Shown here piece by piece: positions 13,224-17,519 of a stretch of DNA of 33,415 nt; position 1 is the first letter of the stretch, and the number at the start of each line of letters is the position of its first letter. The notes below the pieces were generated by a model. The model was not told where the DNA came from, did no database searches, and saw only the letters and a list, made by a program, of their open reading frames with translations. The stretch lies in NCBI GenBank assembly GCA_903928075.1, contig CAIYPD010000118.1:1-33415 (forward strand), written 5' to 3'. The DNA comes from Candidatus Firestoneibacteriota bacterium (GTDB lineage Bacteria; Oederibacteriota; D2-FULL-39-29). Position numbers and translations under genes: made by a program.

Positions 13224-13252
13224 TTGACCAAATGGAAATTTTTTGTTATGAT
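13224..13252 (+). promoter_or_regulatory. Strong promoter of the structured RNA
   Basis: TTGACC (13224-13229), 17-nt spacer, TATGAT (13247-13252), with no coding gene downstream on the plus strand. Expected +1 is about 13258. Confidence 0.7.
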
Positions 13253-13256
13253 ACTT

Positions 13257-13450
13257 ATGGTGTTAAGCACGGTTCCCCAAATAGGGAATGAAAGCATTAG
13301 CAGGGGTGGAAGTTTAAAAAATCAATTCTGTTCTTTGAACTTGTTAACTTGTTTGGATTAAGAAATAAGATATCGGGGCCGACGCTATTCCCTATCTGGC
13401 GTTCCGTTTCACCCCTTGAGTACCGAATAGGAACGCCTATCGGCCCCATA
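13257..13450 (+). ncRNA. Candidate structured non-coding RNA, family unrecognised
   Basis: About 190 nt lie between a good promoter and a strong terminator without a coding frame. Four long complementary pairs are visible: 13375-13382 with 13440-13447 (8 bp), 13398-13405 with 13430-13437 (8 bp), 13281-13289 with 13387-13395 (9 bp), and 13302-13311 with 13407-13416 (10 pairs, one G-U). The last partner lies in the loop of the second stem, so a pseudoknot is implied. A short end pairing, 13255-13260 with 13446-13451, is possible. The landmarks of tmRNA, RNase P RNA and SRP RNA are missing. A 6S-like regulator is possible from size, but the pseudoknot topology does not fit it. The next plus-strand gene is over 4 kb away, so it is not a cis riboswitch for a plus-strand gene. 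Confidence 0.65.
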
Positions 13451-13484
13451 AAAAACCCCCGGAGAATTTTCCGGGGGTTTTTTT
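13451..13484. terminator. Terminator of the structured RNA, shared with the MATE gene
   Basis: Stem AAAAACCCCCGGA / TCCGGGGGTTTTT with a 6-nt loop and a long T-run. The reciprocal T-run on the minus strand suits the convergent MATE gene ending at 13507. Confidence 0.9.
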
Positions 13485-13506
13485 ATTTGCGCTATTTATA
13501 CTTCTA

Positions 13507-15004: not shown

Positions 15005-16240
15005 CTATTTTCTTACGACTTTGTAATTATGCGTCTCCCATTTCTTAAACTCATCCGTAAATTTTCCGGAGGCGTCAATATCCAGCGTTCTATTTTCGCC
15101 GATAACCTCTACTTTTCCCGCCGCGTTCACGCCTTTTACCTGAAAGCTCCCTGTAGCCGGGTCACCCATCTTCATAGCCGCCGAGAAAATATAGATCTCC
15201 TCTTTATATTTTTTCACCATAATATCTATGGGTACCAGCTCGTTGCTTGAAGCCACCGTTGCCCCGTCAAAATCAGGCCCGTTAATAACCGGTGCCAGCG
15301 CCGTTATTTCGGCATTTATCTTAGTTACATTAGCCATCTGTTTTGGATCCCGGGCCAGAGCGTCTTCCATAAACGGCTTTATATTGTGGGCAAAATAAGC
15401 AATACTCTTTGTCCCGTGAATTATCGAAATCCAGATTTCTGCTTTAGTTTCTTCGGGCATCGGCGCGCGGCCGTCACCGGTGAAGTTGGTCCCTATGCAA
15501 TTATATAGCGGCTTGCCTGCCTCTACCCAGCCCTTCATACGGTCCAGGCCTTTTGCCTGCCACCAGAGTATCTTCCCGCTCTTCCCGTTTGCGCTGGCCG
15601 TCGGATAGACATCGTACCCGGCCATATCGCAGGACTTCATATAATCAGCATACATACTGTCCTTCCAGCCGCCGCCTCTGCCGCCATAGGTGGTATTTGC
15701 CACGCCGCAGCTGAAAGTAACCCAGATAGGCCGCGTTGCGTCTACTTTTTTTATAGTTTCATACATTTCAGCCAGGTCTTTCGCGGCTACCCTGGAAGTT
15801 TCAGGTCCGTATTTCCATGTCTTGCCCGCTACCTCAAGATCTTTCTTAAACTGGAAGTTGTCGGGCTCATCCATCATCATCCAGGCTATTATGGTTTTGT
15901 CATCTTTATGTTTAAGGGCTTCCTCATTCATCTCACTGATAAGATACATACCTGCTTTTTTCAGTTCTTCTATCTGCCCCGGTTTTGGGCCGCCCCAGAG
16001 GGCAAAATAGGTATTTATTCCCGCGGCCTTGTATTTCGGGATATTTTCTATACTCTGCACCCAGACCGAGATAGGAAAGAAACCCGGATCCTGCGGGTAA
16101 TTGCTGAATTTCTCCCGGAACTTACCCGTGTTAGTTTGGTCTTTTATTACCTCCGCAACCGCGGAAAAAGACAAAACAAAAACGCCGGCCAGGCAGAACA
16201 AAAGACACCTTTTCAAAATTCCTTTTACTCTCTCCTGCAT
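15005..16240 (-). CDS. Secreted TIM-barrel, glycoside-hydrolase-like protein (paralogue B)
   Basis: The 411-residue protein has a signal peptide (about residues 1-30, likely cut after FSAVA). The mature part has the look of a glycosidase-type TIM barrel: IPKYKAAGINTYFALWGG, then IIAWMMMDEPDNF, where the DEP Glu resembles the acid/base of clan A glycosidases. GYDVYP and EIWISIIHGTKSIAYFAHN follow, with a small C-terminal beta domain (VKGVNAAGKVEVIGENRTLDID). The substrate is unknown. The start at 16240 has an AAAGGAGG site; the in-frame ATG at 16267 has none. It lies 37 nt downstream of its paralogue and in the same operon. Catalytic residues are inferred from pattern, not alignment. Confidence 0.7.
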   Translation of the reverse strand: MQERVKGILKRCLLFCLAGVFVLSFSAVAEVIKDQTNTGKFREKFSNYPQDPGFFPISVWVQSIENIPKYKAAGINTYFALWGGPKPGQIEELKKAGMYLISEMNEEALKHKDDKTIIAWMMMDEPDNFQFKKDLEVAGKTWKYGPETSRVAAKDLAEMYETIKKVDATRPIWVTFSCGVANTTYGGRGGGWKDSMYADYMKSCDMAGYDVYPTASANGKSGKILWWQAKGLDRMKGWVEAGKPLYNCIGTNFTGDGRAPMPEETKAEIWISIIHGTKSIAYFAHNIKPFMEDALARDPKQMANVTKINAEITALAPVINGPDFDGATVASSNELVPIDIMVKKYKEEIYIFSAAMKMGDPATGSFQVKGVNAAGKVEVIGENRTLDIDASGKFTDEFKKWETHNYKVVRK

Positions 16241-16277
16241 CTCTCCTCCTTTTAAAAAGTATTCCAATTTTGAAGCT

Positions 16278-17519
16278 TTAATTTTTTACAACTTTGTAAA
16301 CATGCGAACCCCAGGTCTTAAATTCATCTTTAAATTTTCCCGTGGCATCTATATCCAATGTCCGGTCTTCCCCGAGCACCTGTACTTTTCCCGCGGCTGT
16401 TACGCCTTTTACCTGAAAACTTACGGCAGCCGTCTCCGCTTGTTTCATAGCCGCCGAAAATATATAAGTTTCTTCTTTATATTTTTTTATGAGAATATCC
16501 ACGGGCACCGCTTCTTTTTCCACGGTAACCGCCACCCCGTCGCTGTCCGGACCATTTATGACCGGCGCGAGCTCTGTGACCTGGGTGTTTATCTTTGTAA
16601 CCGCCGCGAGCATTTCCGCATCCGCCAGTAAAGCCGCTTCCTGGAACTTCGGCTTAAAATTATGTGCAAAATAGGCGAGGCCTTTGGTCCCGTGAATTAT
16701 GGAGATCCAAACTTCAGTCCTAAATTCTTCGGTTGTCGGCTTCCGGCCTTTTCCGGTAAAAGTCGGGCCAAAAAAATTAAATCTGGGTTTTTCCGGGCCG
16801 GCCCATTCCTTCATTCTGTCCAGGCCTCTTGCATGGAGCCAGTGGGTATTCTCTCCCACAGATGAAGTCGGGTAGACATCAAAGCCCACAACATCCGCAG
16901 CTTTCATATAGTCGGGATACATAGAATTTTTCCAGCCGCTCCCCCTGCCGTGATACTTATCATTTGCCACGCCGCAGCTGAAGTTGAGCCAAACAGGCCG
17001 GGTAGAATCTTCTTTTTTTATCACTTCATACATTTCCCCGATATCTTTTGCCGAAATCCTTGAGGTCGCAGGCCCGTAATTCCAGGTTTTGCCGTTGACT
17101 TCGAGAGGCGCTTTGGTCGCAAAATTCTCGGGTTCGTCAAAGGTCATCCAGCCAATAATTGTTTTATCGTCTCTATGCTTCAAGGCCTCTTCGTTCATCT
17201 CGCAGACTAAATACATCCCGGCGGCCTTTAAGGTTTCTATCTGCCCCGCAGAGGGCCCTTTGTGTAACCCGAAATAAGTATTAAAGCCCGCGGCTTTGTA
17301 TTTGACCGCGTTTGAAGGACTCTGCAGCCAGACAAGAATAGGAAAAAAATTGGGATCCGCAGGCGGCCCGTTCTTATATTTTTCCCAGGCTCTGGTTACC
17401 GTCCAACCGTCAGTTTTGGTTTCGGCAGATGCGCTGCAAAAAGATACAACCAGCGAGCAAATCAAGAGCAGGAGCAAATATCCGCTAAGTCTTCCGGTTT
17501 CCTTTTGTCCTTTATTCAT
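16278..17519 (-). CDS. Secreted TIM-barrel, glycoside-hydrolase-like protein (paralogue A)
   Basis: The 413-residue protein has a signal peptide (hydrophobic core LLLLLICSLVVSF, likely cut after CSASA). It is collinear with the protein at 15005-16240: VKYKAAGFNTYFGLHKG, EMNEEALKHRDDKTIIGWM, TFDEPENF, GFDVYP, IHGTKGLAYFAHN and a matching C-terminal beta domain. By eye the two are roughly 60 % identical, so they arose by tandem duplication. The function is probably carbohydrate hydrolysis or binding outside the inner membrane. A GGGAGAAGG site precedes the ATG and a TTGAAA-17-TATAAT promoter lies at 17558-17586. It is the first gene of a two-gene operon. Confidence 0.72.
   Translation of the reverse strand: MNKGQKETGRLSGYLLLLLICSLVVSFCSASAETKTDGWTVTRAWEKYKNGPPADPNFFPILVWLQSPSNAVKYKAAGFNTYFGLHKGPSAGQIETLKAAGMYLVCEMNEEALKHRDDKTIIGWMTFDEPENFATKAPLEVNGKTWNYGPATSRISAKDIGEMYEVIKKEDSTRPVWLNFSCGVANDKYHGRGSGWKNSMYPDYMKAADVVGFDVYPTSSVGENTHWLHARGLDRMKEWAGPEKPRFNFFGPTFTGKGRKPTTEEFRTEVWISIIHGTKGLAYFAHNFKPKFQEAALLADAEMLAAVTKINTQVTELAPVINGPDSDGVAVTVEKEAVPVDILIKKYKEETYIFSAAMKQAETAAVSFQVKGVTAAGKVQVLGEDRTLDIDATGKFKDEFKTWGSHVYKVVKN

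Follow-up and report, generated by a model that had tools for sequence, protein, structure and literature searches.

A structured small RNA family with a nearly invariant C-rich loop in Candidatus Firestonebacteria and its possible link to defence genes

Introduction

In Staphylococcus, the C-rich sRNAs of the RsaE/RoxS type bind Shine-Dalgarno regions via loops of the UCCC type. A different C-rich sRNA, sX13 of Xanthomonas (RF02232), represses mRNAs that contain a G-rich motif through its C-rich loops, and does not need Hfq (PMC3771888). In addition, comparative genomics has uncovered structured RNA motifs with covarying structure that occur in multiple genomes and belong to no known family (PMC2864571, PMC6429828). 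No relevant description of small RNAs in Firestonebacteria was found in the literature.

Here, we describe an RNA from a 33,415 nt stretch of DNA of a Candidatus Firestoneibacteriota bacterium (the whole stretch is called the window below). It resembles sX13 as a stand-alone sRNA with a C-rich apical loop and a proposed independence of Hfq (PMC3771888), and G-rich motifs near start codons, the targets of sX13 (PMC3771888), are proposed to be its targets as well. However, sX13 comprises three separate hairpins in 115 nt, whereas the window RNA has a nested stem pair, a 24-nt invariant loop and a loop-pairing 5' element. The covariance model of sX13 yielded 20.2 bits, compared to a gathering score of 50, over 13387-13485, which includes the terminator. 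For the staphylococcal sRNAs, neither a sequence relation nor a structural relation to the window RNA was found, nor was there an Rfam match. The window RNA shares covarying structure, presence in multiple genomes and the lack of a known family with the motifs from comparative genomics but, unlike these, it occurs in a single bacterial family and comes with a candidate target motif (PMC2864571, PMC6429828). It differs from the known C-rich-loop sRNAs in its nested stems, in a loop that is both long and invariant, and in a self-complementary 5' element.

Results

An earlier note, made from the sequence alone, had proposed a stand-alone structured RNA of unrecognised family at 13224-13484, with a promoter, a strong terminator and several complementary stretches, and had named an Rfam search and a covariance analysis of relatives as checks. 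All of the named complementary stretches are present, and so are both transcription signals (Table 1). The promoter matches the consensus at 10 of 12 positions and has an extended -10 element; only 1% of the random segments, and likewise 1% of the shuffled sequences, attained its score of 11, which includes bonuses for the 17-nt spacing and the TG. The terminator consists of CCCCCGGAGAATTTTCCGGGGG followed by TTTTTTT and ends at about 13484; its 15-bp hairpin is apparent in the fold and was not listed by a simple terminator scan. The region 13259-13484 folds with -79.7 kcal/mol (z -4.15). Without the terminator, z is only -2.0, so that the folding energy alone argues weakly for a structure and does not prove it. 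ARAGORN detected neither a tRNA nor a tmRNA. A promoter and a terminator of its own, independent of the neighbouring genes, are generally expected of a trans-acting sRNA and were found for the window copy and several others, and the consistent same-strand position before related genes that characterizes riboswitches and cis-acting leaders was not observed, the contexts being variable. Judged by its sequence, 13259-13484 is a stand-alone structured RNA gene with predicted transcription.

Table 1. Features of the RNA gene in the window and promoters of related copies.
Feature	Coordinates	Strand	Basis
Sigma70-type promoter TTGACC-17-TATGAT, TG before -10	13224..13252	+	promoter scan
Predicted transcript, about 226 nt with terminator; start deduced from promoter	13259..13484	+	fold and promoter
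5' G-rich element AGGGGTGGAA, complementary to core loop	13302..13311	+	shared between copies
Conserved core, two nested stems and invariant loop	13375..13447	+	covariance model match 13376-13446, 83.2 bits
Outer stem, 5' strand GGGGCCGA, partner 13440-13447	13375..13382	+	covariation
Asymmetric internal-loop motif ATTCCCTATC, variably conserved	13387..13396	+	structural alignment
Inner stem, 5' strand GGCGTTCC, partner 13430-13437	13398..13405	+	covariation
Loop GTTTCACCCCTTGAGTACCGAATA with C-rich seed TTTCACCCC	13406..13429	+	nearly invariant in 14/14 copies
Inner stem, 3' strand GGAACGCC	13430..13437	+	covariation
Outer stem, 3' strand TCGGCCCC	13440..13447	+	covariation
Intrinsic terminator hairpin and T run	13450..13484	+	15-bp hairpin in fold
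17-nt spaced promoters before copies G001:C33, G002:C22, G002:C43, G003:C21, G004:C192; weaker before G000:C9			

Using blastn, a second copy was found on contig C9 of the window's own genome, and all 4 other genomes of the host's family, which belongs to the uncultivated Candidatus Firestonebacteria, also hold copies. A covariance model, R1, was built from seven copies with the window excluded, and it nevertheless recovered the window copy (83.2 bits). Altogether, R1 matched 14 copies in the five genomes of this family. A further 93 genomes, which included 40 of the same phylum, gave no match. When the five genomes were examined with a sensitive model search alongside four from the sister family, which belongs to the same order, exactly 14 copies were again revealed, with none in the sister family. 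A fifteenth copy, spotted by eye in G002:C22 near 82422-82620, has a loop that is interrupted by a 137-nt insert. The first 60 inserted nt of this copy (L106 1556-1754) match a dispersed repeat of G004 (L055, L113) with 87% identity. A search for the loop in 85k species genomes led back to Firestonebacteria, with two stray matches in Firmicutes and Myxococcota that the covariance model rejected, and the loop was absent from the viral contigs searched. The number of copies per genome varies from 1 to 5. Three copies are at an apparently shared place in three genomes. The neighbouring genes differ between copies, and in several cases the next gene points towards the RNA gene. An empty-site comparison for mobility at the copy near rsfS revealed very different intergenic regions.

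None of the 4227 families of Rfam 15 matched the window at gathering score, and for the loci of the 13 relatives the only such match was a tRNA located elsewhere in these loci, in agreement with the absence of a recognisable family in the earlier note. The loose Rfam list contained only sub-threshold matches, mostly to the terminator and on both strands. Thus, the existence of a small multi-copy RNA family is nearly certain from these comparisons. It was found in one family of Candidatus Firestonebacteria and nowhere else among the sequences searched, and it appears to be new, being outside Rfam 15 and undescribed in the literature found.

In the core, an outer stem leads through an asymmetric internal loop, which has a TCCCTATC-like motif, to an inner stem. 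This is capped by the 24-nt loop GUUUCACCCCUUGAGUACCGAAUA, which contains UUUCACCCC and is nearly invariant across the 14 copies. In the structural alignment, which was fitted to the covariance model and hence favours the structure, 98.9% of the cells are standard pairs, and two-sided compensatory changes occur in 9 of the 15 pairs. The outer stem (7 modelled pairs, 100% paired) contributes three of these and the inner stem (8 pairs, 97.9% paired) six. The covariation score was not reached by any of 500 shuffles, and sliding the partners by 1-3 columns decreased the pairing to 26-57%. For the outer stem, the changes are legible in the raw sequences, where GGGCUGCC/GGCAGCCC is replaced by GGGCCGG/CCGGCCC and also by GGGCUACC/GGUAGCCC. 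Between two species of the genus (G000 and G001), the core is identical at 71 of 71 positions, and the 100 nt flanking it on each side are 55% and 68% alike, compared to an average of 53% and a maximum of 65% for pairs of random segments. The covariance check on relatives thus showed compensatory changes in both stems, which gives strong support to the two stem pairings of the earlier note (13375-13382 with 13440-13447 and 13398-13405 with 13430-13437), and, at the level of sequence comparison, two nested stems are demonstrably kept by compensatory change. The conserved core, together with the promoters and terminators that recur in other copies, also bears out the proposal of a stand-alone structured RNA.

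Promoter scores of at least 10 were obtained upstream of 7 of the 14 copies, compared to 5% of random segments, and all of these promoters have a spacing of exactly 17 nt. Terminators of differing sequence are found at the same place in the window copy, G001:C33 and G002:C22. Within the leader, the 5' G-rich element is the only stretch that was seen to be common to the copies. In promoter-bearing copies with a leader it reads AGGGGTGRAA, AGGGTGAAA or GGGGTGAAA, and GGGGATAAA in one; the RNA (AGGGGUGRAA or GGGUGAAA) is complementary to the loop. About half of the copies resemble complete transcription units, in which a promoter of 17-nt spacing is combined with the 5' element; about half have no such element, and for most of the latter no convincing promoter was found either.

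In the window, 13302-13311 (AGGGGTGGAA) pairs with 13407-13416 of the loop (TTTCACCCCT), as the earlier note had proposed. This pair is conserved, because in seven copies a sigma70-type promoter precedes a G-rich element with which the loop can pair. For these seven copies taken together, the pairing amounts to -101.8 kcal/mol, compared to -73.0 (sd 6.3) for shuffled leaders, none of 500 of which reached the real value. This figure is somewhat flattering because the copies were chosen for having a promoter and the element. The pseudoknot suggested in the earlier note thus stands in part: the pairing of the 5' element with the loop recurs in related copies, but the crossing helix (13281-13289 with 13387-13395) is real only in the window copy, and its ATAGGGA is found upstream of no other copy. 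The idea of two alternative states fared no better, since the local TTCCC/GGGAA hairpin is located in a stretch that fails to align between copies. Both the crossing pair and this hairpin are best treated as chance or copy-specific features.

The sequence GGGUGAAA is exactly complementary to UUUCACCC of the loop. It also occurs in sibling genomes, behind an extended -10 element and just before the ribosome-binding site of genes for HsdM, a type III methylase and SNF2/PLD helicases; from the motif, which is just upstream of the Shine-Dalgarno sequence, to the start codon there are 13-22 nt. The form GGGTGAAA precedes two helicase genes adjoining cores and a third gene farther off in a core-bearing locus. 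A strict pattern, GGTAAAAT-N15-30-GGGTGAAA, had 7 matches in the five RNA-bearing genomes, all 7 outside of ORFs and five of them 4-22 nt before the longest ORF start; four of the seven are independent, because the other three are the loci that originally drew attention to the motif. The remaining 40 genomes of the phylum also contained 7 matches, all 7 inside ORFs, and the window's own genome, with its two RNA copies, contained none. A relaxed pattern had 27 matches in the five RNA-bearing genomes (16 of them clearly outside of ORFs), compared to 1 in four genomes of the sister family. According to Pfam, the genes behind the motif encode HsdM (two), an N6_N4 methylase, SNF2/PLD helicases, a NOV-domain helicase and an alpha-CTD/sigma-4 protein.

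The duplex of loop and leader has an energy of about -12 kcal/mol. The match between seed and leader is usually limited to 8 bp; where a G in front of GGG would extend it, the leaders mostly have U. In an unbiased duplex scan of 175 start regions, the real loop was on average not separated from control loops. Covariation of the seed with its targets is not to be expected, because the seed is invariant. Hfq (PF17209) was absent from the nine genomes tested, and 5 of 14 control genomes were positive.

Several further observations were made in the neighbourhoods. A second nested hairpin with a C-rich loop, GGGCTATTCG...TAGCC(C), exists in three exact copies, two of them downstream of core copies (L043 1773-1830 and L052 8103-8160, approximate positions) and one alone in G004:C197 (L079, minus strand), where it has its own TTGCCC-17-TATAAT promoter directly before GGGTGAAAG. 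Three cores (L045, L047, L050) follow short reading frames or remnants that end in similar peptides (KINE, KVNE, RISE), and two of these cores precede helicase genes, as if in related defence islands. A sister-family genome without a core contains TAAAAT-N-CAGGGGTGAAA with no following ORF (G007:C169, L097 at about 1519, minus strand), which is perhaps a different RNA of the same regulon. In the window itself, 15008-17519 on the minus strand encodes two adjacent proteins of 420 and 413 aa that belong to no Pfam family; the latter is similar to a protein encoded close to the RNA copy in G001:C33 (L044 10508-11746).

Discussion

The comparisons described above document the RNA family together with its structure and promoters. 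Because the invariant C-rich loop matches a G-rich tag before restriction-modification and helicase genes, the RNA may regulate defence genes. The reading that we favour is a C-rich-loop sRNA that works like sX13, with an antisense loop, independently of Hfq and with defence genes among its candidate targets; we judge the odds of it to be about even. In this likeliest mechanism, the loop would act as an antisense seed that binds GGGUGAAA beside the ribosome-binding site and would thereby lower translation of the mRNAs for HsdM, the type III methylase and the SNF2/PLD helicases. The expressed RNA's own 5' element would pair with the loop as a pseudoknot in solution (UUUCACCCC of the loop with AGGGGUGGAA of the element), compete for the loop and thereby tune its availability. 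Hfq would not take part.

The conservation of the whole loop (24 of 24 bases nearly invariant) is beyond the needs of an 8-nt seed and therefore suggests a protein or a fold as the constraint. The structured RNA might thus mainly be a protein-bound particle or a decoy, with a protein that recognises the invariant loop in place of antisense pairing and with GGGUGAAA serving in the leaders either as a second ligand or as a translation enhancer that this protein also recognises. The presence of GGGUGAAA in the 5' end of the RNA as well as in mRNA leaders would be expected of a shared protein site, and G motifs of the sX13 type can act as translation enhancers (PMC3771888). However, the leader motif finds its exact complement in the loop, a match for which a shared protein site would give no reason, and we consider this explanation unlikely, albeit one to be reckoned with. 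It is less probable still that the RNA is primarily a cis-acting element, that is, that folding of a read-through transcript brings the loop into pairing with a nearby GGGUGAAA, which keeps the following gene from being translated, and that the stand-alone copies are derived from such elements. Two cores (G001:C27 and G002:C75) are indeed located about 110 nt before the GGGUGAAA of a helicase gene on the same strand, and the related hairpin in G004:C197 directly precedes GGGTGAAAG, but three copies, among them that of the window, have a terminator at their end and a convergent gene beyond it, the neighbouring genes vary between copies, and most leaders have no core upstream.

The changing places of the copies, several of them near mobile defence-type genes, would also fit a DNA hairpin of a mobile element, such as a transposon end or a recombination site, that just resembles an RNA. 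Against this, a genome has no more than 1-5 copies, three of the copies occupy the apparently shared place, promoters and terminators fit an RNA gene, no common adjacent transposase or integrase was seen and the flanks differ, so that we regard it as very improbable. Hardly any weight can be given to a divergent member of an existing Rfam family or an artefact of chance folding: sX13 and ncr1575 are on the weak sub-threshold list, but neither the window nor the 13 relatives reached a gathering score with their RNA copies, the sub-threshold matches are largely to the terminator and on both strands, and chance folding is excluded by the covariation.

The reading as an antisense sRNA can be extended tentatively, and with appreciably less confidence than the reading itself, to a regulon: a family-specific set of sRNAs would jointly restrain restriction-modification and other defence genes via the leader tag GGGUGAAA, and the same tag within the RNA would close the seed loop as a pseudoknot, making this a self-limiting, Hfq-free post-transcriptional defence regulon.

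Taken together, the results add a new RNA family, backed by real compensatory changes, from an uncultivated phylum for which no small RNA descriptions were found in the literature. If the link to the leaders holds, several restriction and helicase defence systems that are unrelated to each other would be under the simultaneous control of a single RNA motif, and post-transcriptional control of defence islands would become directly testable.
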